DNA of 64,000 bases from assembly GCF_020165495.1 (NCBI RefSeq), contig NZ_JAIUIE010000003.1, positions 124,001 to 188,000 on the forward strand, in the 5' to 3' direction. The stretch's first letter is position 1. The number at the start of each line of letters is the position of its first letter. The stretch is from Mesorhizobium sp. BR1-1-16. GTDB lineage: Bacteria > Pseudomonadota > Alphaproteobacteria > Rhizobiales > Kaistiaceae. The notes below the pieces were generated by a model. The model had not been told where the DNA came from. It saw only the letters and a list, made by a program, of their open reading frames with translations, and did not search any database. The translations under genes and the position numbers were made by a program. Below are positions 33,657 to 47,396 of this stretch, piece after piece.

Positions 33657-34715
33657 GTGGCCGGTCCATCGCGCCTCGAAGCGCTCGTCGCCCTGTCGGC
33701 TCGCCTCGGCCGCGACCCTTTGAAGACGCAGGCCGCAGGCGGGAATACCTCGCTGAAGCAAGGTGATGCCCTCTGGATCAAGGCTTCCGGCACCTGGCTT
33801 GCCGAGGCCGAGACGCGCGACATCTTCCTGCCGGTCGCGCTTGCGCCGCTTCGAGCCGCCATCGCGGCCAATGACTCGCGCGCCGCCAAGGCGACCGATT
33901 TCGTCGTCGCGGAGGACAATCCGCTCGGGCTTCGTCCCTCGGTCGAGACATCGGTGCACGCTGTCTTCTCATTCGCCGCCGTGCTGCATGTCCACTGCAT
34001 CGAGACCGTGGCGCTCGCCGTCCGCACGGATGCGGCCGCGGTGATCGCCGACCGTCTCCGATCGCTCGACGATGTCGCCCACTGCCATATCCCCTACCTG
34101 AAGCCCGGCCTTCCGCTCGCCCGCGCCATCCAGTCCGCAGCACGACCCGGCACCAATGTCGTGACGCTCGGCAATCACGGCCTCATCGTCGCGGCGGATG
34201 ATGTCGAGGCGGCCGGCGAACTGCTCGGTCGCGTCTCGAAGGCGCTCGCCAGCCCCGCACGCGCCGCGCCCGAGGCGGACACTGCGGCGCTCGCCGCGCT
34301 TGCCGATGGCTCCGACTGGCGGCTGCCCGCCGATCCCTTGGCGCATGCCACCGCGACTGACCCGATCCGGCTCGCGATCGCGCTGACGGGTTCGCTCTAT
34401 CCAGATCACGTCGTCTTTCTCGGCAGCGCCGTCGCGGTCCTTCCCGAGGACACCAGGCCGGCCGATTTCACCAGCCTCGCAGCCGTGCCGCAGATGTTGC
34501 TGGCCGTTCCGGGCAAAGGCGTCCTGATCCATCGCGACGTCCTGCGCGGCGGCGACGATCTCGCCCGGGCGCTGGCCGAGGTGACGGGCCGGATCGCCGA
34601 GAACACGGCGCTGCGCGTTCTTACGACCGATGAGGAGCGTGAATTGTTCAACTGGGACGCCGAGATTTACCGGCGCGCGCTCGCCGCAACAGCCACAGCC
34701 TCACCGCAATCATGA
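33657..34715 (+). CDS. Class II aldolase/adducin-family protein in the rha operon
   Basis: 352 residues. Class II aldolase features are QAAGGNTSLKQGDALWIKAS, the zinc-binding HVH in AVLHVHCIETVAL and LGNHGLIVAADDVEAAGELL. It resembles the aldolase half of RhaD but lacks any dehydrogenase domain. The GTG at 33657 follows GGAGAAGGG; an ATG at 33642 in the same frame is the alternative. Its stop overlaps the first FGGY kinase start (ATGA). Role unknown: a second sugar-phosphate aldolase or an aldolase-like partner. Confidence 0.85.
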   Translation: MAGPSRLEALVALSARLGRDPLKTQAAGGNTSLKQGDALWIKASGTWLAEAETRDIFLPVALAPLRAAIAANDSRAAKATDFVVAEDNPLGLRPSVETSVHAVFSFAAVLHVHCIETVALAVRTDAAAVIADRLRSLDDVAHCHIPYLKPGLPLARAIQSAARPGTNVVTLGNHGLIVAADDVEAAGELLGRVSKALASPARAAPEADTAALAALADGSDWRLPADPLAHATATDPIRLAIALTGSLYPDHVVFLGSAVAVLPEDTRPADFTSLAAVPQMLLAVPGKGVLIHRDVLRGGDDLARALAEVTGRIAENTALRVLTTDEERELFNWDAEIYRRALAATATASPQS

Positions 34716-36091
34716 CGGCGAAACCGGCCGCTATCGCCGTCCTCGACATCGGCAAGTCGAATACCAAGCTCGCGCTCATCGATCGCGGCAGCCGCGCTAT
34801 CCTGTCGATCAGCACGATGAAGAATATCGTGCGCGCCGGGCCGCCCTACCCGCATTTCGATGTCGAGACGATCTGGGCATGGCTGATCGATGGCCTCGCC
34901 GAGGTGAGCGCGACCATCGATGTCGAGGTCATCGCCGTCACGACGCATGGCGCCGCGATCGCGGTGCTGGACGAGGACGGTCTGGCGCTTCCCGTGCTCG
35001 ACTATGAGCATCCCGGACCGGACGCCGTGGCGGAGTCCTACCGCGCGGTGCGCGGTGATTTCACCGAGATTCTGTCGCCCGACCTGCCTGGCGGTCTCAA
35101 TGCCGGACGCCAACTCTTCTGGCTCGCGCGGACCTTTCCAGACGATTTTTCCCGGGCAACAACGATCCTGCCCTATCCGCAATATTGGGTCTGGCGGCTG
35201 ACGGGCCGGCGCGTCGCCGAGCCGACCTCGTTCGGCGCCCATTCCGACCTCTGGAATGCCACCGCCGCGAGCTATTCCAGCCTTGCCATGCGCGAGGGCT
35301 GGGCGGATCTGTTTCCGCCCCGGATCGCGCCCTGGGACGACGTCGGCCCCGTCCGGCCCGAGATTGCCGCGGCCGCGCGGCTGCCGGCGCGCTGCCGCGT
35401 CGTCGCCGGCATCCATGACAGCAATGCCAGCCTACTGCCGCATATCCTTTCGCGCCCGCTGCCCTTCGCCGTCATATCGACCGGCACCTGGATGATCACG
35501 TTTGCCGCTGGCGGCCGCCTCGACCGCCTCGACCCGACCCGCGGCGGCCTCGCTTATGTCGATGCCTTCGCGAGGCCGGTGCCATCCACCATGTCGATGA
35601 CGGGTCGCGAATTCGAGATCCTGACCGGTGGGCGCGCGAGCGCTCCGAGCGACGATGAGATCGCCCGTATTCTCGACGAACGGATCATGGCGCTGCCCAG
35701 CTTCGTTCCGGGCGCCGGCCCCTATGGCCAGCGACAGGGCCGCTGGTCGCATGATCCCGAAACGCTCACGGATGGCGAGCGGACGGCCGCCGCGAGCCTC
35801 TACGCCGCCCTTGTCGCCGACACGTCGCTGCGGCTTGCCGGCGCTGAAGGTCCCGTCCTGATCGAAGGCCCGCTGGCCAAGAGCCCGCTCTTCCTTGCGG
35901 CGCTCGCGGTGCTGGTCGAGCGACCCGTGATCGGGCGTCCCGACGCCACTGGCACGACGGAAGGCGCAGCGCTCCTCGCCGACGGGCCCGAACGCGCGCG
36001 GCAGGGCGCCGCCGATCCCGCACCGGCGGCTCCGCTTGGCGGCAGCTTTGCAGCCTATGCGGCGGACTGGCGGGCCGCAGCCGGCGACTGA
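34712..36091 (+). CDS. FGGY-family carbohydrate kinase (rhamnulokinase-like), copy A
   Basis: 459 residues. FGGY features are AVLDIGKSNTKLALID (phosphate loop), TTHGAAIAVLDEDG, LPYPQYWVWRL, AGIHDSNASLLPHIL (catalytic Asp), ISTGTWMITFAAGG and DATGTTEGAALL. It phosphorylates an L-sugar ketose, probably rhamnulose. It is translationally coupled to the upstream aldolase. More than half of its residues match copy B by eye, including DNA segments of 35 and 41 identical bases, so one of the two arose by duplication. Confidence 0.88.
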   Translation: MTAKPAAIAVLDIGKSNTKLALIDRGSRAILSISTMKNIVRAGPPYPHFDVETIWAWLIDGLAEVSATIDVEVIAVTTHGAAIAVLDEDGLALPVLDYEHPGPDAVAESYRAVRGDFTEILSPDLPGGLNAGRQLFWLARTFPDDFSRATTILPYPQYWVWRLTGRRVAEPTSFGAHSDLWNATAASYSSLAMREGWADLFPPRIAPWDDVGPVRPEIAAAARLPARCRVVAGIHDSNASLLPHILSRPLPFAVISTGTWMITFAAGGRLDRLDPTRGGLAYVDAFARPVPSTMSMTGREFEILTGGRASAPSDDEIARILDERIMALPSFVPGAGPYGQRQGRWSHDPETLTDGERTAAASLYAALVADTSLRLAGAEGPVLIEGPLAKSPLFLAALAVLVERPVIGRPDATGTTEGAALLADGPERARQGAADPAPAAPLGGSFAAYAADWRAAAGD

Positions 36092-36162
36092 CGATCCGCT
36101 GCGGCGACGCCGCGTCCGAATCCGGCTATCCTGCCCCCTCGTTTCACGGCAAGCAGGTTCCA

Positions 36163-37536
36163 ATGTCGCTTCCCGAAAGCACCGTCGTCCTCGATATCGG
36201 CAAGACCAACGCCAAGCTGGCGCTGGTCGATGCCGCGACGCGCGCGATCATCGACATCCGCACGACGGCGAACGAGGTTCTCCGCGACGGGCTCTATCCA
36301 CATTTCGACACGGACCGGCTCTGGTCGTGGATCGTCGCCGGCCTGAAGGACTTTTCCGCCAAGGGCACCGTCCGCTGCATTTCGACGACAACGCATGGCG
36401 CCGCCATCGCGATCGTCGGGCCGGACGGTCTGGTGCTGCCGATCCTCGACTATGAATATGCGGGCCCCTCTTCGATCGACGAGGCCTATCGACCGCTTCG
36501 GGGCGCGTTCTGGGAAACGCTGTCGCCCGATCTGCCGGGCGGGCTCAATGCCGGCAGGCAGCTCTATTGGCTCGAGGAGACATTTCCCTCAGCCTTTGGC
36601 CGCGCCAAGGCCATCCTGCCCTATCCGCAATATTGGGTCTGGCGGCTCAGCGGCGCCCTGGTCAGCGAGCCGACCTCGCTCGGTTGCCACAGCGATCTCT
36701 GGAATCCCGAAGCCGGTACATTCTCCCGCCTCGCCGAGGATCGCGGCTGGTCCAAGCTGATTCCGCCGGTCGTGCATCCGTGGGATACCGCCGGGACCCT
36801 TCGCCCGGCGCTCGCCGAAAAGACCGGGCTGCCGGCGGATTGCCGCGTCGTCGCCGGCATCCATGACAGCAATGCCAGCCTGCTGCCGCATATCCTGCGG
36901 CGCAGAACGCCGTTCACCGTGCTCTCGACGGGCACATGGCTGATCGTGTTCGCGCTCGGCGGCTCGATGGCCCATCTCGACCCGGCGCGCGATTGCCTCG
37001 CCAATGTCGACGCCTTCGGCCGGCCGGTGCCCTCTGCGCGCTTCATGGCCGGGCGCGAGTTCGAGCGCCTGACCGAGGGCGCCAAGGCCGAATCTAGCGA
37101 AGACGACATCGCGTCTGTTGTTGCCAAGGGCGCGATGGCCCTCCCCTCCTTTGCCCCGGGCACCGGCCCCTATGCCTTCCTGGAAGGCCGCTGGACCGTC
37201 GATCCGGCGACGTTGACACCGAGCGAACGGATCGCCGCGGCAAGCCTTTATTGCGCGCTGGTCGCGAGCACATGCATGACGCTGACAAGCGCAGCCGGGC
37301 CGATCATCGTCGAGGGGCCATTGTCGCGGAACCGCCTCTTCCTGTCGGCGCTCGCCACGATCGCCGACCGCCCCGTCATCGCGCGCGCCGACGCGACCGG
37401 CACGACGGAAGGGGCGGCGCTGCTTGCCGACGGCCCTGACGGCGCCGGGCCGGGCGCCCCGGATCCCGCGCCGACGGCGCCGCTTGCGACCGACATTGCA
37501 GCCTATGTCGCCGCCTGGCGCGCAGCGCTCGACTGA
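36163..37536 (+). CDS. FGGY-family carbohydrate kinase (rhamnulokinase-like), copy B
   Basis: 457 residues. VVLDIGKTNAKLALVD, TTTHGAAIAIVGPDG, SPDLPGGLNAGRQLYWL, LPYPQYWVWRL, AGIHDSNASLLPHIL, LSTGTWLIVFALGG and DATGTTEGAALLADGP repeat the layout of copy A. Copy A or copy B should be the rhamnulokinase RhaK; I cannot tell which, so no symbol is given. It starts 71 bases after copy A and is the last rha-type gene. Confidence 0.88.
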   Translation: MSLPESTVVLDIGKTNAKLALVDAATRAIIDIRTTANEVLRDGLYPHFDTDRLWSWIVAGLKDFSAKGTVRCISTTTHGAAIAIVGPDGLVLPILDYEYAGPSSIDEAYRPLRGAFWETLSPDLPGGLNAGRQLYWLEETFPSAFGRAKAILPYPQYWVWRLSGALVSEPTSLGCHSDLWNPEAGTFSRLAEDRGWSKLIPPVVHPWDTAGTLRPALAEKTGLPADCRVVAGIHDSNASLLPHILRRRTPFTVLSTGTWLIVFALGGSMAHLDPARDCLANVDAFGRPVPSARFMAGREFERLTEGAKAESSEDDIASVVAKGAMALPSFAPGTGPYAFLEGRWTVDPATLTPSERIAAASLYCALVASTCMTLTSAAGPIIVEGPLSRNRLFLSALATIADRPVIARADATGTTEGAALLADGPDGAGPGAPDPAPTAPLATDIAAYVAAWRAALD

Positions 37537-39264: not shown

Positions 39265-39666
39265 ATGCCAACCGCCAATCCGTCCTTCAGCCCCGCCGTC
39301 GCCGGCATCCCGCGACGCCTGTTGCAGGCCGAGGGCGCCGCCTTGCTGGCGGCCGTTGTCATCGCGTATGCCTATCTCGGCGGCAACTGGATCGTCTTCG
39401 CCGCGCTGTTCCTCGCGCCCGATCTCGCAATGCTCGGCTATCTCGGCGGAAACCGGGTCGGCGCGGCACTCTACAACGCTGTCCACACGACGCTTGCCGC
39501 CTTCGCGCTCGGCGCGGCTGGCTATCTCCTCGGCGCAGGCTGGGCCATCGATGGCGCGCTGATCCTCGCCGCCCATATCGGCTTCGACCGCATGCTCGGC
39601 TACGGCCTCAAATACGGCACCGCCTTCGGCGACACCCATCTCGGTTCGAAGGGCAAAAGGCCCTAA
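39265..39666 (+). CDS. DUF4260 family small membrane protein
   Basis: 133 residues with three or four hydrophobic segments: LQAEGAALLAAVVIAYAYLG, WIVFAALFLAPDLAMLGYLG, TLAAFALGAAGYLLGAGWAI. The ending HIGFDRMLGYGLKYGTAFGD THLG is the hallmark of DUF4260. Function unknown. The ATG at 39265 follows CGGAG. It overlaps the convergent RpiR gene by four bases. Confidence 0.88.
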   Translation: MPTANPSFSPAVAGIPRRLLQAEGAALLAAVVIAYAYLGGNWIVFAALFLAPDLAMLGYLGGNRVGAALYNAVHTTLAAFALGAAGYLLGAGWAIDGALILAAHIGFDRMLGYGLKYGTAFGDTHLGSKGKRP

Positions 39667-40505
39667 TCCCCTTCGCGCCGGATCGTTTCGAGCGCTTCGA
39701 GACGTGCGCGGCCTTCGGCGCCGCGGGCGGTGGCGACGGCGGCGAGGAGGGCCTCGGTGATCAGCATCAGGCCAGCGCCGGAGTCCCAAACGGATGGCGC
39801 GGCGACGTGGGCGGGGAGCACATGGCGCGCCACCTTCGAGATCGGCGAAAGCCACTGGTCGGTTACGAGCACGACGCTGGCGCCACGTGCTGCCGCCCGC
39901 TCTGCAAAATCGGCGAGATCGGATGAATAGCGGCGAATATCGAACAGCACGACCACGGCGCGCTTCCGGACGTCGAGCAGTTGATCGAGCCAAGCCACCG
40001 GCTGACCGGTCACGCGCCGCACATCTGGCCTGAGCACGCGGAGATGCACCGCCATATAGTCGGCGATCGGATCGGTGAAGCGCCCGCCGAGAAGGTGAAC
40101 TGGACGACGCGGATCGGACAGAAGCGCCGCCACGGCCGCGAACTCGTCGCGCGGCACATTGGCAGCCGTAGCGCGCAGATTGTCGACCGAGGCCGCGGCA
40201 AAACCCGCCAGGGGGTCATCGGCATAGCGCTGAAGGCCCTTGGTCAGCGGCGTAGCCCGCCGCGCGGCCAATTCGGCCTTCAGTTCATCCTGAAAGGCGC
40301 CGTAGCTCGGAAAACCGAGCTTGGCGATCATGCGCAGCACGGTCGGCGCGCTGACCCCCGCCGCTTCGCCGAAGCGCGCCGCCGAATCCAGTCCCGCCAT
40401 CGGGAAATCGGCCAACAGGCGCTGCGCCGCCCGCTTCTCGTTCGGCGTCATCCGCCCGAGATCCCGCCGCAGCCGTTCTGCGATCGAGGCGTCGCTGTCA
40501 GTCAT
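39663..40505 (-). CDS. RpiR/MurR-family transcriptional regulator
   Basis: 280 residues. An N-terminal HTH_6 domain (MTPNEKRAAQRLLADFPMAG, FGEAAGVSAPTVLRMIAKLG) precedes a C-terminal SIS domain (residues 120-260: VHLLGGRFTDPIADYMAVHL, VVVLFDIRRYSSDLADFAER). SIS domains sense phosphosugars or other metabolites. It is divergent from the N-formylglutamate-amidohydrolase-like gene, with an 8-bp-arm palindrome in the 181-base gap, so it probably controls the following catabolic genes. Confidence 0.9.
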   Translation of the reverse strand: MTDSDASIAERLRRDLGRMTPNEKRAAQRLLADFPMAGLDSAARFGEAAGVSAPTVLRMIAKLGFPSYGAFQDELKAELAARRATPLTKGLQRYADDPLAGFAAASVDNLRATAANVPRDEFAAVAALLSDPRRPVHLLGGRFTDPIADYMAVHLRVLRPDVRRVTGQPVAWLDQLLDVRKRAVVVLFDIRRYSSDLADFAERAAARGASVVLVTDQWLSPISKVARHVLPAHVAAPSVWDSGAGLMLITEALLAAVATARGAEGRARLEALETIRREGD

Positions 40506-40611
40506 CTCGTCGCCCTGCCCTGCGCACCCATCGCTCCATCATCACCCTCTGCCAATTCCGGAGGCATTTGACGCCTTCATTTCAGAATTGACGCAATCCA
40601 ACGCTGCTGTA

Positions 40612-40637
40612 ACGTATCGTTCAGTCGCCCGATACGT
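40612..40637. promoter_or_regulatory. Inverted repeat, probable RpiR operator
   Basis: ACGTATCG, ten bases, CGATACGT: perfect 8-bp arms, centre-to-centre spacing about 18 bases, in the divergent RpiR/amidohydrolase region. The spacing places both half-sites on one face of the helix, as expected for a dimeric regulator. A repeated TTGACGC (40568 and 40588) lies nearby and could be -35 elements. Confidence 0.55.
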
Positions 40638-40686
40638 CAAAGCACGGATATCGGCCGGCAACCCTTTTTGCGGAGCCGTGGTCGGC

Positions 40687-41526
40687 ATGTCGAGCCTTTC
40701 GACCCCAGGTCTGGCGATGAAGCACGGCGCCGACGACGCGCCGCTTGTCAGCCCCGACGAGCCTGCGCCCGTCGAGGTCATCGCCGCACGCGCCGATCCC
40801 TTCGTCTTTGTCTGCGAGCATGCCAGCAACCGGGTCCCGCGCGCGCTCGGTGATCTCGGCCTCCCGCCTGAGGCGTTTGAGCGCCATATCGCCTGGGATC
40901 CCGGCGCGGCGCTGCTGACGCGCGCCCTTGCCCGCCGTTTTGGCGGCGCGGCCGTGTTGCAGGCCTATTCGCGCCTCGTCATCGATTGCAACCGCGCGCC
41001 AGAGCTTCCCGACGCCATCACGCCGATTTCGGAAGACACGGCCATCCCAGGCAATGGCGACCTCACTTCCGCTGATCGCGCGCGCCGCATCGACGCGGTC
41101 TGGACGCCGTTTCATGCGGCAATCGACGCTATGATGGCAGGGCGCCGCATGGCAGGCCGGCCTACGGTTTTCGTTACGCTGCACTCCTTCACGCCGGTTT
41201 ATCGAGGTGTTGCCCGGCCCTGGCATGTCGGCCTCATCGAGGCTGACGATCGCCGCCTCGCCGAGCCGATGCTGGCGGCGCTCGCGGCCGATCCGGCGCG
41301 CGTCGTCGGTGACAACCAGCCTTATTCGGCCAAGGACAATGTCGACTACACGATCCGTCGGCATGGCCGCGATCGCGACCTGCCGCATGTGATGATCGAA
41401 GTGCGCAATGACCTGCTGCGGACACCCTCCGACATCGAGGCCTGGACGCGGCGGCTCGGCGACGCGCTGGCCGCAGGCACGCGCGGCCTCGGCATCGATT
41501 TCAGCGAGGCCGCGGCAGACGGCTAG
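40687..41526 (+). CDS. N-formylglutamate amidohydrolase family protein
   Basis: 279 residues. Family marks are FVCEHASNRVPRALGDLGLP, LVIDCNRAPELPDAI, FVTLHSFTPVYRGVARPWHV and VMIEVRNDLLRTP, giving the zinc-dependent fold that removes formate from N-formylglutamate. Here it is the first gene of a permease/ligase/dehydrogenase cluster and not beside hut genes, so it may instead hydrolyse a gamma-glutamyl or related amide (inference). ATGs at 40687 and 40717 are both possible starts. Confidence 0.88.
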   Translation: MSSLSTPGLAMKHGADDAPLVSPDEPAPVEVIAARADPFVFVCEHASNRVPRALGDLGLPPEAFERHIAWDPGAALLTRALARRFGGAAVLQAYSRLVIDCNRAPELPDAITPISEDTAIPGNGDLTSADRARRIDAVWTPFHAAIDAMMAGRRMAGRPTVFVTLHSFTPVYRGVARPWHVGLIEADDRRLAEPMLAALAADPARVVGDNQPYSAKDNVDYTIRRHGRDRDLPHVMIEVRNDLLRTPSDIEAWTRRLGDALAAGTRGLGIDFSEAAADG

Positions 41527-41698
41527 AGATTGGCCGGGCCTCGGCCCGTGCCGGACGCGGCGGTACCCTTGGCGCGAAGACCAGGGACCACCGGGACGAC
41601 GGTGCCGACGACAGCACCGGGAACAGTTGATGTGGGGCATCGCCTGGCGGCGATCCGGGCAGGGCCGGATCAGGCCGGGTCAGCGACGGGAGCATGGC

Positions 41699-43252
41699 AT
41701 GAGCGTGCGCGACAGCTACAGCGATCAGGACAAGAAGGCGGACATCCACGTCCTCCATTCCATGGGATATGCGCAGGAACTGGAGCGGCGGATGAGCCGC
41801 TTTTCCAACTTCGCGATCTCGTTCTCGATCATCTGCATTCTCTCGGGCGGCATCAATTCGCTCGCCCAGGCAACCTCCGGCGCCGGCGGCGCCGCGATCG
41901 GCATCGGCTGGCCGCTCGGCTGCCTGATCTCGGGCGTCTTCGCGCTGGCGATGGCGCAGATCTCCTCCGCCTATCCAACGGCCGGCGGGCTCTATCATTG
42001 GGGCTCGATCCTCGGCAACCGCTTCACCGGCTGGCTCACCGCCTGGTTCAACCTGCTCGGTCTCGTGACCGTGCTCGGCGCGATCAATGTCGGCACCTAT
42101 TACTTCTTCGTCGGCGCCTTCGGGCCGACCTTCGGCTGGGTCGACAACACCACGGATCGCGTGCTGTTCCTCGTCGTCCTGACCGGCCTGCAGGCCCTGA
42201 TCAACCACATGGGCATCGGCCTGACCGCGAAGCTGACCGACTTCTCCGGCTACCTCATCTTCGTCACGGCGCTGGTGCTGGCGATCGTCTGTCTGGTCGC
42301 GGCGCCAAGCTATGACTTCGCCCGTCTGTTCACCTTCGCCAACTATTCGGGCGAGGCGGGCGGCAATGTCTGGCCGTCAGTCTCGGGCTGGTGGGTGTTC
42401 CTGCTCGGCCTGCTGCTGCCGATCTATACCATCACCGGCTATGACGCCTCGGCCCACACCTCCGAGGAGACGGTGAAGGCCGCCCATTCCGTGCCGCGCG
42501 GCATGGTCATGTCGGTGGTTTGGGCGGCCGTGTTCGGCTACATCATGCTCTGCTCGTTCGTGCTGATGATCCCGAACATGGATGACGCGGCCAAGCAGGG
42601 CTGGAACGTCTTCTTCTGGGCCATGGACTCCCAGGTGAACCCGGTCGTGAAGACGATCCTCTACCTCGCCATCTTCGTCTCGCAGTTCCTGTGCGGCCTG
42701 GCGACGGTGACATCCGTCTCGCGCATGATCTTTGCCTTCTCGCGCGACGGCGGCCTGCCGGCGTCCAAGGCGCTATCGAAGGTCAGCCCGAAATTCCGCA
42801 CGCCGGTTGCAGCGATCTGGACCGGCTCGATCCTCGCGGTGCTGTTCGTTTGGGGATCCTCTTTGGTCTCGATCGGCGACACCCCTGTTTATACGATCGT
42901 CGTCTCGTGCACTGTCATCTTCCTGTTCTTCTCGTTCGCCATTCCGATCGCCCTTGGCCTCTTCGCCTATGGCACCAGCAAGTGGCCTGCGATGGGGCCA
43001 TGGAATCTCGGGCGAGGCTTGTTCACTCTGTTCGGACTGCTCTCCATCGTCGCGATGGTCCTGATCTTCGTCATCGGCATCCAGCCGCCGAACGAATGGG
43101 CGCTCTACATCACGATCGGCTTCCTGGTATTGGCCGCCATCGTCTGGTTCGTCTTCGAGAACCGTCGCTTCCAGGGCCCGCCGATCGGCGACATGATCGC
43201 CAAGCGCAAGGCCGCCATCGCCGCTGCTGAAAAGGCCGTCGGCGAAGCCTGA
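41699..43252 (+). CDS. APC-superfamily amino acid/amine permease
   Basis: 517 residues with about 12 helices. The N-terminus ELERRMSRFSNFAISFSIIC and the segments SSAYPTAGGLYHWGSILGNR and TITGYDASAHTSEETVKAAH are those of the amino acid/choline/GABA permease (ACT) branch, related to GABA and choline permeases. Substrate expected: an amino acid, polyamine or amino alcohol. The ATG at 41699 is the first sensible start. It lies 172 bases after the amidohydrolase and 67 before the ligase, with a hairpin between. Confidence 0.9.
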   Translation: MSVRDSYSDQDKKADIHVLHSMGYAQELERRMSRFSNFAISFSIICILSGGINSLAQATSGAGGAAIGIGWPLGCLISGVFALAMAQISSAYPTAGGLYHWGSILGNRFTGWLTAWFNLLGLVTVLGAINVGTYYFFVGAFGPTFGWVDNTTDRVLFLVVLTGLQALINHMGIGLTAKLTDFSGYLIFVTALVLAIVCLVAAPSYDFARLFTFANYSGEAGGNVWPSVSGWWVFLLGLLLPIYTITGYDASAHTSEETVKAAHSVPRGMVMSVVWAAVFGYIMLCSFVLMIPNMDDAAKQGWNVFFWAMDSQVNPVVKTILYLAIFVSQFLCGLATVTSVSRMIFAFSRDGGLPASKALSKVSPKFRTPVAAIWTGSILAVLFVWGSSLVSIGDTPVYTIVVSCTVIFLFFSFAIPIALGLFAYGTSKWPAMGPWNLGRGLFTLFGLLSIVAMVLIFVIGIQPPNEWALYITIGFLVLAAIVWFVFENRRFQGPPIGDMIAKRKAAIAAAEKAVGEA

Positions 43253-43271
43253 TCGCGAACCCCGAAAACGC

Positions 43272-43293
43272 GGGAGGGGCCGATGCCCCTCCC
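43272..43293 (+). terminator. Intercistronic hairpin after the permease
   Basis: Perfect 9-bp stem (GGGAGGGGC and its complement) with a CGAT loop in the permease-ligase gap and no T-run. It is more likely an mRNA-processing or stability element than a full terminator, since the downstream genes keep the same direction and theme. Confidence 0.55.
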
Positions 43294-43319
43294 CTCCACC
43301 GCTTCTGACAAGATGGAAC

Positions 43320-44690
43320 ATGCCGATGGCCGGAAACATGACGCTGAAGGAACTGGAGGCGGCGATCGCCAACGGCACGATCGACACGGTGATCGTGGCC
43401 TTCCCCGACATGCAGGGCCGGCTGATTGGCAAGCGTTTCACCGGCGCCTTCTTCCTCGACAGCGCGTTGCATGAAACCCATGCCTGCAACTATCTCCTCA
43501 CCGTCGACATCGACATGGAGCCTGTGCCGGGATACCAGGCGGCGAGTTGGGAGAAGGGCTATGGCGACTTCGTTCTGAAGCCAGTCGTCTCATCACTGCG
43601 CCGCATTCCCTGGCTCGAAGGCACGGCTCTGATGCTCGCCGATGTCTGCGACCATCACGGCGACGATCTCGCGCACAGCCCGCGCGCCATGCTGAAGGCG
43701 CAGCTGAAGCGGCTTTCCGAGCGCGGCATGTCGGCCTTCTTCGCCTCAGAGCTCGAATTCTACGTCTTCGACGAGACCTTCGAGGGCGCGAGCGACAAGC
43801 GCTGGCGCGATTTGAAGACGATGGGCAATTACATCGAGGACTACAACATCCTCCAGACGACCAAGAACGAACCGCTGCTCCGGGCGATCCGCAACGGACT
43901 GATGGGTGCAGGCATTCCGGTCGAAAACTCCAAGGGCGAATGGGGTCCCGGCCAGGAAGAGGTGAATGTCCGTTATGCCGAGGCGCTGGAAATGGCGGAC
44001 CAGCACGTCATCATGAAGAATGGCATCAAGGAGATCGCCCATCTCCAGAACCGCGCCGTCACCTTCATGGCGAAGTGGCGCTACGACCTTGCGGGCTCCT
44101 CTTCGCATATCCACTCCTCGCTCTGGGATGCCAAGGCGAAGAAGCCCCTGTTCATGGACGCGAAGGACCCGCTCGGCATGTCAGCGACCATGAAGTCGTG
44201 GCTGGCGGGTCATCTGAGGCATGCGAGCGAGATGACCTATTTCCTCGCGCCCTATATCAATTCCTACAAGCGCTTCCAGGTCGGCACCTTCGCGCCGACC
44301 AAGGCGGTGTGGTCGGTCGACAACCGGACGGCAGGCTATCGCGTCGTCGGCGAGGGCAAGTCGATCCGCACCGAATGCCGCATTGGTGGCGCCGACCTCA
44401 ATCCTTACCTCGCCTTTGCCGCGCTGATCGCCGCCGGCCTCGCCGGCATGGACGAGAAGCTGCCGCTGGAAGCAGAATTCGCGGGCGATGCCTATGGCGC
44501 AGCCGGCATCCGCGAAGTGCCGAAGACCTTGCGCGACGCGCTGGCAGCGCTCGACGGCTCCGCGATGCTGCGTTCGGTGCTCGGCGACGCCGTGGTGGAG
44601 CACTATCTCCATACCGGCCGCTGGGAGCAGTTCGAATATGACCGCCGTATCACGGACTGGGAGTTGCAGCGCGGCTTCGAGAGGTATTGA
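43320..44690 (+). CDS. Glutamine-synthetase-family ligase (gamma-glutamyl amine ligase type)
   Basis: 456 residues. Glutamine synthetase catalytic domain: FFASELEFYVF (metal-binding Glu residues), GPGQEEVNVRYAEALEMADQ, GSSSHIHSSLWD, NRTAGYRVVGEGKSIRTECR and DLNPYLAFAALIAAGLAGM. The N-terminal beta-grasp part is DTVIVAFPDMQGRLIGKRFT. It lacks the adenylylation loop region of GlnA and matches the PuuA/GlnT-like group that ligates glutamate to amines using ATP. The permease and dehydrogenase neighbours support an amine-catabolic role. The start could be the ATG at 43326. Confidence 0.88.
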   Translation: MPMAGNMTLKELEAAIANGTIDTVIVAFPDMQGRLIGKRFTGAFFLDSALHETHACNYLLTVDIDMEPVPGYQAASWEKGYGDFVLKPVVSSLRRIPWLEGTALMLADVCDHHGDDLAHSPRAMLKAQLKRLSERGMSAFFASELEFYVFDETFEGASDKRWRDLKTMGNYIEDYNILQTTKNEPLLRAIRNGLMGAGIPVENSKGEWGPGQEEVNVRYAEALEMADQHVIMKNGIKEIAHLQNRAVTFMAKWRYDLAGSSSHIHSSLWDAKAKKPLFMDAKDPLGMSATMKSWLAGHLRHASEMTYFLAPYINSYKRFQVGTFAPTKAVWSVDNRTAGYRVVGEGKSIRTECRIGGADLNPYLAFAALIAAGLAGMDEKLPLEAEFAGDAYGAAGIREVPKTLRDALAALDGSAMLRSVLGDAVVEHYLHTGRWEQFEYDRRITDWELQRGFERY

Positions 44691-44746
44691 TTGCCGCCAT
44701 CCGCGCCGACACATGCTTGGCGACACGACCTGATCGAGGCTCATCC

Positions 44747-46150
44747 ATGAACGCCCCCGTCCTGAAGATCGTCACGCCGGTCGACGGCTCCATCTATGCC
44801 GAGCGCCCGCTCGCCAGCGAAGCTGATGTGCTCGCCGCGCTGGAACGCGCCAAGGCGGCGCAGCGCGCCTGGCGCAGCGCCAGCATGTCTGAGCGGCAGA
44901 AGATCGCCACCGCCTTTGTCGACGCCATGGTCGCCGAGAAGGACAAGGTGGCCGAACTGCTCGCCTGGCAGATGGGCCGGCCGATCCGCTACGGCCATGG
45001 CGAGATGCGCGGCTTCGAGGAGCGCGCGCGATACATGATCGAGATCGCGCCGGCGACGCTGGCCGATATCGATGTCGGCCCGAAGGAAGGTTTCAAGCGC
45101 TTCATCCGCCGCGAGCCGCTCGGTGTCTGCCTTAACCTGCCGGCCTGGAACTTCCCTTATATGACGGCGCTCAACGCGGTGCTGCCCGCCATCCTCGCCG
45201 GCAACACCGTCGTCATGAAGCATTCGAGCCAGACGGCGCTGGTTGCCGAGCATTTCGCCTCGGCCTTCGCCATGGGCGGGCTTTGGCCGGATGTTTTCCA
45301 GTATGTGAACATGTCGCATGAGGTGACCGACAAGGTCATCCGCTCCGGCCTCGTCGACCAGGTCGGCTTCACCGGTTCGACGGCGGGCGGCCGCCACATC
45401 ATGGCATCGGTCGCCGGTGCCTCAAACTTCCCGGCGACGACGCTGGAACTCGGCGGCAAGGATCCGGCCTATGTCCGGCCGGATGTGAACCTTCCCTTCG
45501 CGATCGAGAACATCGTGGATGGCGGCTTCTTCAATTCCGGCCAGTCCTGCTGCGCCATGGAACGCGTCTATGTGCATGAAAGCGTCTATGACGCCTTCGT
45601 CGAGGGCGTGGTCGCAACCGTCAACGCCTACAAGCTTGGGAGCCCGACCGATCCGGCAACCACGCTCGGCCCGGTTGTGCGTGCGGAAGCCGCGCGGTTC
45701 ATCAAGGCGCAGATCGACGAAGCCGTTCATGCCGGCGCGAAGCCGCTGATCGACGCTGCCCGGTTCCCGGAGGCATCGGAAGGCACCGCCTATCTGGCGC
45801 CGCAGGTTCTTGTCGGCGTCGACCATTCGATGCGCTTCATGACCGAGGAAACCTTCGGACCGGCCTTCGGCATCATGAAGGTCACCTCGGACGAGGAAGC
45901 GATCGGTCTTATGAACGACTCGCCCTTCGGCCTCACCGCCGCCATCTGGACCGAGGACGTCGAGGCCGCCGAGAGTATCGGCGACCGCATCGAGACCGGC
46001 ACCGTCTATATGAACCGCTGCGACTTCCTCGATCCGGCCCTGCCCTGGGTCGGCGTCAAGCAGACCGGCCGCGGCGCGACCCTGTCGCGTGTCGGCTACG
46101 AGCATCTCACGCGGCCGAAGGCATTCCATCTGAGGACGAAAACAGACTGA
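44747..46150 (+). CDS. NAD(P)-dependent aldehyde dehydrogenase
   Basis: 467 residues. ALDH motifs are PAWNFPYMTALNAVLPAILA, GFTGSTAGGRHIMA (cofactor), the catalytic Glu in LELGGKDPAYV, the nucleophile in NSGQSCCAMERVYVHE and EETFGPAFGIMKV. It oxidises an aldehyde to an acid; in this cluster probably the aldehyde made by the adjacent alcohol dehydrogenase or an amine oxidation product. It follows the ligase by 56 bases. Confidence 0.92.
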   Translation: MNAPVLKIVTPVDGSIYAERPLASEADVLAALERAKAAQRAWRSASMSERQKIATAFVDAMVAEKDKVAELLAWQMGRPIRYGHGEMRGFEERARYMIEIAPATLADIDVGPKEGFKRFIRREPLGVCLNLPAWNFPYMTALNAVLPAILAGNTVVMKHSSQTALVAEHFASAFAMGGLWPDVFQYVNMSHEVTDKVIRSGLVDQVGFTGSTAGGRHIMASVAGASNFPATTLELGGKDPAYVRPDVNLPFAIENIVDGGFFNSGQSCCAMERVYVHESVYDAFVEGVVATVNAYKLGSPTDPATTLGPVVRAEAARFIKAQIDEAVHAGAKPLIDAARFPEASEGTAYLAPQVLVGVDHSMRFMTEETFGPAFGIMKVTSDEEAIGLMNDSPFGLTAAIWTEDVEAAESIGDRIETGTVYMNRCDFLDPALPWVGVKQTGRGATLSRVGYEHLTRPKAFHLRTKTD

Positions 46151-46155
46151 CCCCC

Positions 46156-46196
46156 TCCGCCGTCATGCCCGGGCTTGTCCCTGACATGACGGCGGA
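46156..46196. repeat. Palindromic extragenic element
   Basis: TCCGCCGTCATG and its perfect complement (12-bp arms) around the 17-base centre CCCGGGCTTGTCCCTGA, in the 67-base gap between the aldehyde and alcohol dehydrogenase genes. The core CGTCATGCCCGGGCTTGTCC is, from memory, a form that recurs in intergenic regions of many Hyphomicrobiales genomes, so this looks like a single copy of a dispersed REP-like family. Confidence 0.65.
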
Positions 46197-46217
46197 TATC
46201 CCGATTCCACGGAGACC

Positions 46218-47396
46218 ATGATGCTCGACCAATACGCCTCGCTGACCGCCAACTGGTCCTATCCGACAGCGATCCGCTTTGGCGCGGGGCGGATCAGCGA
46301 ACTGGCTGACGCTGTGAAGGCGGCCGGCATCACCAGCCCGCTATTCGTCACCGATCCTGGCCTCGTTACGCTGCCGGTCGTTGCCAAGGCCCTCGGCGTG
46401 CTCGATGCCGCCGGTCTGGCCTACACCGTGTTCTCGAAGGTCGACGGCAACCCGACCCTCGCCAATCTCGATGACGGCCTTGCCGCCTATCGCGCTGGCG
46501 GCCATGACGGCGTCATTGCCTTCGGCGGCGGTTCCGGCATGGATATCGGCAAGACCATCGCCTTCATGGCCCGCCAGACGCGCCCCGTATGGGATTTCGA
46601 GGATCGCGAAGACTGGTGGACGCGCGCCGATCCGAACGGGATCGCCCCGATCGTCGCCGTACCGACCACGTCAGGGACCGGCTCGGAAGTCGGCCGTGCA
46701 GCGGTGATCACCGATCCCGCCGACCACACGAAAAAGATCATCTTCCATCCGAAGATGCAGCCGAAGATCGTGATCGAAGACCCCGAGCTGACCCTTGGAC
46801 TGCCGCCGAAGATCACGGCCTGGACGGGCATGGATGCGCTCAGCCATTCGCTCGAGGCATGGTCGAGCCCGTTCTTCCATCCGCAGTCCGCCGGCATCGC
46901 GCTGGAAGGCATGCGCCTCGTCAAGGATTGGCTGCCGATCGCCGTCAAGGATGGCAGCCGGCTCGACGCGCGCTCCTATATGCTGATCGCCTCGTCGATG
47001 GGCGCTGTCGCCTTCCAGAAAGGCCTTGGTGCGATGCACGCGATGAGCCATCCCTGCTCCAGCTTGCGCGGCACGCATCATGGCCTGACCAATGCCGTCG
47101 TGATGCCCTATGTCCTTGCCCACAACGCGCCTGTGATCACCGACAAGCTGGCGGCGCTGGCGCGCTATCTCGACCTGCCGGGCCAGTCGGCGGCGAGCGT
47201 TATCGACTGGGTGCTGGCGCTCCGCGTGGAACTCGGCATTCCGCACACGCTGAAGGAGATCGGTGTCGACGAAAGCGTCCTCCCGGACGCTGCCAGGATG
47301 GCCGAGCACGACCCGTCGAATGGCGGCAATCCCATCGCGATCGGCGAAAAGGAATATGAAACGCTGTTCCGGCGCGCGATCGAAGGCACCGTCTGA
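46218..47396 (+). CDS. Iron-containing (type III) alcohol dehydrogenase
   Basis: 392 residues. Family features are GVIAFGGGSGMDIGKTIAFM (NAD-binding), TTSGTGSEVGRAAVITD, and the metal ligands in WTGMDALSHSLEAW, GAMHAMSHPCS and GTHHGLTNAVVMPYVL. It interconverts an alcohol and an aldehyde. Tandem ATGs lie at 46218 and 46221, with GGAG just upstream. It is the last gene of the amine/alcohol cluster and convergent with a LysR gene. Confidence 0.92.
   Translation: MMLDQYASLTANWSYPTAIRFGAGRISELADAVKAAGITSPLFVTDPGLVTLPVVAKALGVLDAAGLAYTVFSKVDGNPTLANLDDGLAAYRAGGHDGVIAFGGGSGMDIGKTIAFMARQTRPVWDFEDREDWWTRADPNGIAPIVAVPTTSGTGSEVGRAAVITDPADHTKKIIFHPKMQPKIVIEDPELTLGLPPKITAWTGMDALSHSLEAWSSPFFHPQSAGIALEGMRLVKDWLPIAVKDGSRLDARSYMLIASSMGAVAFQKGLGAMHAMSHPCSSLRGTHHGLTNAVVMPYVLAHNAPVITDKLAALARYLDLPGQSAASVIDWVLALRVELGIPHTLKEIGVDESVLPDAARMAEHDPSNGGNPIAIGEKEYETLFRRAIEGTV

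Follow-up and report, generated by a model that had tools for sequence, protein, structure and literature searches.

A Kaistia-type gene cluster probably dedicated to ethanolamine gamma-glutamylation, with an APC-superfamily permease in place of a TRAP importer

The window analysed here is a stretch of 64,000 nucleotides from Mesorhizobium sp. BR1-1-16 (contig NZ_JAIUIE010000003.1, positions 124,001 to 188,000), a member of the Kaistiaceae in the GTDB lineage. Between positions 39663 and 47396 it holds six intact open reading frames, in which an RpiR-family regulator diverges from five genes for an amidohydrolase of the N-formylglutamate amidohydrolase (FGase) family, a permease, a glutamine-synthetase-like ligase, an aldehyde dehydrogenase and an iron-type alcohol dehydrogenase (Table 1). 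Domain profiles and reading frames recovered all six genes on the strands given in the initial annotation. Upstream, at 34712-37536, lie two tandem FGGY-type carbohydrate kinase paralogues, the second of which has an FGGY_C_2 domain.

Table 1. Features of the cluster, with positions in the window and predicted roles.
Feature	Position	Strand	Domains and remarks
RpiR-family regulator	39663..40505	-	HTH_6 PF01418 + SIS PF01380
Candidate RpiR operator TTTCAGAATTGACG	40580..40593	+	Conserved element, function inferred
FGase-family amidohydrolase, predicted gamma-glutamylglycine amidohydrolase	40687..41526, start codon uncertain	+	PF05013
APC-superfamily permease, predicted ethanolamine (amino alcohol) importer	41699..43252	+	PF13520; sits where related clusters have TRAP genes
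Glutamine-synthetase-like ligase, predicted gamma-glutamylethanolamide synthetase	43320..44690	+	PF00120
Aldehyde dehydrogenase, predicted gamma-glutamyl-aminoacetaldehyde dehydrogenase	44747..46150	+	PF00171
Iron-type alcohol dehydrogenase, predicted gamma-glutamylethanolamide dehydrogenase	46218..47396	+	PF00465/PF25137

The ligase shares 97% identity with its Kaistia soli counterpart, which places the genome in or very near Kaistia. It is 65% identical to 11zs and 53% identical to PDB 5dm3, which we take to be a Chromohalobacter salexigens protein. Motifs at the sites for glutamate, metal and nucleotide, for example ELEF, KGE...GQ.E, S.H.H.SL, NSYKRF, DNRTAG and ECR.GG, are kept in at least 95% of 106 ligase orthologues. 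The DGSS segment binds ammonium in true glutamine synthetases, and in an alignment with the GlnA of the same genome, which is encoded elsewhere and outside the cluster, this segment is replaced in the ligase by ETHACNYL. The replacement is consistent with an acceptor that is an amine instead of ammonia, without specifying which amine. All of the families in the cluster have many members in other roles and no assignment at equivalog level was obtained, which would also suit an ordinary glutamine synthetase surrounded by genes that share no joint pathway. That reading was rejected, and is scarcely credible, because the ligase falls below the cut-offs for both type I (TIGR00653, 221 bits against 429) and type III (TIGR03105, 224 bits against 470) glutamine synthetases and has its ammonium-site segment replaced, the genome has its own GlnA, and the synteny recurs across the Hyphomicrobiales.

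The description of this enzyme in the initial annotation as a PuuA-like member of the glutamine synthetase family stands as to the family and is loose as to PuuA, since the ligase is 28.6% identical to Escherichia coli PuuA (27-29% to PuuA and the genome's own GlnA) and scores 187 bits against the NCBIfam PuuA equivalog NF045547, for which the cut-off is 650. A Puu-type gamma-glutamylation of a polyamine or other amine would have a ligase, an aldehyde dehydrogenase, an amide hydrolase and an APC permease in common with the cluster, and the E. coli Puu pathway follows the same logic of glutamylation, oxidation and hydrolysis. However, the PuuB oxidase and PuuD hydrolase belong to other families than the window enzymes, neither a PuuB-like oxidase nor PuuD is among the cluster genes, and an alcohol dehydrogenase implies a hydroxyl group on the substrate. 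The polyamine route was rejected on the ligase comparison, and a Puu-type role in general is very unlikely.

Both dehydrogenases are well conserved in their motifs. ELGGKDP and GQ.CC are kept in at least 95% of 88 orthologues of the aldehyde dehydrogenase, and in the iron-type alcohol dehydrogenase MDA..H, LG..H and HHG stand at the expected metal-ligand places and are kept in at least 95% of 89 orthologues. The amidohydrolase matches PF05013 with 160 bits (cut-off 28.9), has 2odf as its nearest solved structure, and is the least conserved enzyme of the cluster. The genome holds two further PF05013 genes, so that the cluster's amidohydrolase may not be alone in carrying out the last step of the pathway proposed below. 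In K. soli, the closest relative, the regulator, ligase and both dehydrogenases are 96-98% identical to their window counterparts, and the amidohydrolase gene (locus L004, 6245-7151, and also L118) is frameshifted into two frames with an in-frame stop. The split may mean that the gene is a pseudogene, or it may stem from an error in sequencing; if the frameshift is real, another hydrolase would be needed in K. soli.

Synteny was compared over 80 loci from named genomes, together with additional loci from the Hyphomicrobiales. The order of a minus-strand RpiR gene followed by FGase, transporter, ligase, aldehyde dehydrogenase and alcohol dehydrogenase recurs in Kaistia loci with an APC permease, in the Hyphomicrobiales and in some gammaproteobacterial relatives, and the compared loci have their RpiR orthologue and amidohydrolase gene in divergent orientation. 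The ligase is present in 60 of the 121 Hyphomicrobiales genomes drawn (E < 1e-120), and by hand count at least 39 of these 60 also have the amidohydrolase no more than about 5 kb from the ligase, on one contig and in the same orientation. The grouping of the genes is not due to chance. The initial annotation had named a failure of the genes to co-occur in other genomes as a refutation of its proposal; the ligase and amidohydrolase stay together across the order, and this objection does not apply.

The same chemistry is known from other bacteria. A pathway of C. salexigens and Agrobacterium C58 goes back to Vetting 2015, San Francisco 2015 and Gerlt 2016, as these are cited in passages of PMC10132767 and PMC6529630. 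For C. salexigens its enzymes are listed as a PF00120 ligase, a PF00465 iron-dependent dehydrogenase, a PF00171 aldehyde dehydrogenase and a PF05013 “formylglutamate amidohydrolase” that acts on gamma-glutamylglycine (PMC9397018, Table 2). In the window these four families all lie in one operon-like run and would act in the same order, with an APC permease where C. salexigens and Agrobacterium C58 have a TRAP importer. The operon MED193_10021-10056 of Phaeobacter sp. MED193 comprises RpiR, GGAH (gamma-glutamylglycine amidohydrolase), EtoV, EtoW, EtoX, an ethanolamine gamma-glutamylase, an aldehyde dehydrogenase and a gamma-glutamylethanolamide dehydrogenase; several of its proteins, enzymes as well as the binding protein, show induction on phosphoethanolamine, and EtoX has a Kd of 7.9 uM for ethanolamine (PMC10132767). 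Its likeness to the window is one of gene order, which is identical from RpiR through amidohydrolase, transporter, ligase and aldehyde dehydrogenase to alcohol dehydrogenase, the EtoVWX TRAP genes there standing against one APC gene here. The GlnA4 cluster of Streptomyces coelicolor, SCO1610-1615, has a gamma-glutamylethanolamide synthetase, as predicted for the window, but a short-chain dehydrogenase and the EpuRI regulator in contrast to the iron-type alcohol dehydrogenase and RpiR protein found here (PMC6529630). An FGase-family last step (SCO1615) has been proposed for Streptomyces with reference to Gerlt 2016 and San Francisco 2015, orf5 of the cluster being labelled a glutamine amidotransferase in the cluster figure and assigned to the formylglutamate amidohydrolase family in the discussion (PMC6529630).

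Two features put forward as novel in the initial annotation therefore have precedents. A cluster with an FGase-family enzyme in the last step, of which none was thought to be known, is published for C. salexigens (PMC9397018) and proposed for Streptomyces (PMC6529630), and a gamma-glutamylglycine amidohydrolase also belongs to the Phaeobacter operon, which is headed by an RpiR gene of the type that had been considered unusual (PMC10132767). The pathway, its last enzyme and its regulator type are already described in other bacteria, and only the importer differs here.

Ethanolamine is a headgroup of membrane lipids. We consider the cluster very probably to be an operon for ethanolamine catabolism by the known type of gamma-glutamylation route, with APC import and RpiR control. 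Gene content, orthology, synteny and the conserved element are seen directly in the sequences, whereas enzyme activities, substrate, transport and regulation are extrapolated from characterised relatives. The APC permease would import ethanolamine, which the ligase would join to glutamate at the expense of ATP to give gamma-glutamylethanolamide. The iron-type alcohol dehydrogenase would oxidise this amide to the aldehyde, the aldehyde dehydrogenase would convert the aldehyde to gamma-glutamylglycine, and the FGase-family amidohydrolase would release glutamate and glycine. Control of the operon would lie with the divergent RpiR protein, which probably acts through the conserved element upstream of the amidohydrolase gene. 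The chemistry and the ethanolamine substrate suggested at the outset are thus very probably right, judged by homology to the studied pathway. An EutBC route was rejected, as a search of the genome found no EutB ethanolamine ammonia-lyase (the E. coli control was positive). The cluster is almost certainly an ordinary Kaistia member of the known pathway with a predicted APC importer, and a generically annotated Kaistia cluster is now tied to the EutBC-independent ethanolamine route.

The particular feature here is the replacement of the TRAP importer genes by a single APC permease, a replacement seen repeatedly in the family. In Prosthecomicrobium pneumaticum (L011) the order is RpiR-FGase-DctQ-DctM-EtoX-ligase-ALDH-ADH, with enzyme and regulator genes 66-80% identical to those of the window. 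In a ligase tree (n=108) this TRAP cluster is sister to the Kaistia group with a support of 99, and 5dm3 falls inside a TRAP clade. The P. pneumaticum binding protein scores 503 bits against 4uab, presumably the ethanolamine-bound C. salexigens protein Csal_0678, and 61 bits against the next solved relative. Csal_0678 has been used as an EtoX reference (PMC10132767). A literature search found no paper that ties to 4uab. With transporters sorted into five classes, the ligase tree requires 29 changes of transporter type, although some labels of “none” only reflect short contigs, so importers are often exchanged within the family. A search of the window's genome, which had no positive control of its own, found no EtoX-type binding protein, so that the most direct sequence indicator of the substrate is missing; EtoVWX, which the cluster lacks, was treated as variable rather than defining for membership of the pathway type. 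A second, TRAP-type copy of the cluster in the same genome was also considered and rejected, as the genome search gave no match. The EutBC-independent route appears to be common in the Hyphomicrobiales, with interchangeable importers.

The presence of an APC permease in place of the TRAP importer could instead mean that the same pathway logic serves mainly another amino alcohol, such as 2-amino-1-propanol or 1-amino-2-propanol, entering through the permease. The sequence of 4uab is identical to that of 4xf5, an entry that contains 2-amino-1-propanol, which raises the possibility that alaninol is accepted in the family. Yet the enzymes and the candidate operator are common to the TRAP/EtoX clusters, including the sister lineage in P. 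pneumaticum, and another main substrate is unlikely. It is similarly doubtful that the APC clusters of Kaistia, Mesorhizobium and Phyllobacterium use a different amino alcohol from the TRAP ethanolamine clusters, with the permease swap marking the switch.

The element TTTCAGAATTGACG, between the regulator and amidohydrolase genes, is a candidate RpiR operator. Even with one mismatch allowed, the 5.2 Mb genome contains no second copy, and 0.02 occurrences of its 13-base core are expected in the window. Of 50 intergenic regions between divergent RpiR and FGase genes, 11 contain the motif TTTCANAATT, compared with two occurrences in 815 kb of locus sequence from elsewhere. The remaining 39 regions, most of which belong to other families, lack it, so the element is not universal. 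An exact TTTCAGAATTGA stands at the same intergenic place in Kaistia APC loci, in the TRAP-type loci of P. pneumaticum and L093, in Bauldia (L054) and in Chelatococcus (L023). Its presence in both APC-type and TRAP-type clusters suggests the same regulator and inducer. The element overlaps a promoter-like TTGACG (40588-40593) and TAACGT (40610-40615) with a spacing of 16, as read from the sequence. No description of regulation through such an RpiR operator was found in the cited pathway literature, and the element offers a testable handle on regulation.

Variants of the gene arrangement were seen in several lineages. Seven Pseudomonas loci (L026, L028, L035, L037, L080, L082 and L083) have ligase, aldehyde dehydrogenase and alcohol dehydrogenase genes, followed downstream by a highly similar APC gene (about 80%), and lack an amidohydrolase gene nearby. 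Another branch of the ligase (L013, 2782-8863; L016, L033, L038, L051 and L075) lies beside an ABC transporter, with no amidohydrolase, APC or TRAP genes, and a class-III aminotransferase also adjoins in some of these loci. In Kaistia granuli (L010) and K. adipata (L012) the ligase and both dehydrogenases are present, while the site lacks the regulator, amidohydrolase and permease; the gene just upstream falls in the same ORF cluster as a gene that precedes the operon in other Kaistia. A small insertion with a PIN-domain protein, possibly a toxin-antitoxin pair, separates ligase and aldehyde dehydrogenase in L005 (10367-11274) and similarly in L009, L020, L063, L068, L070 and L076, in clusters that are otherwise intact.
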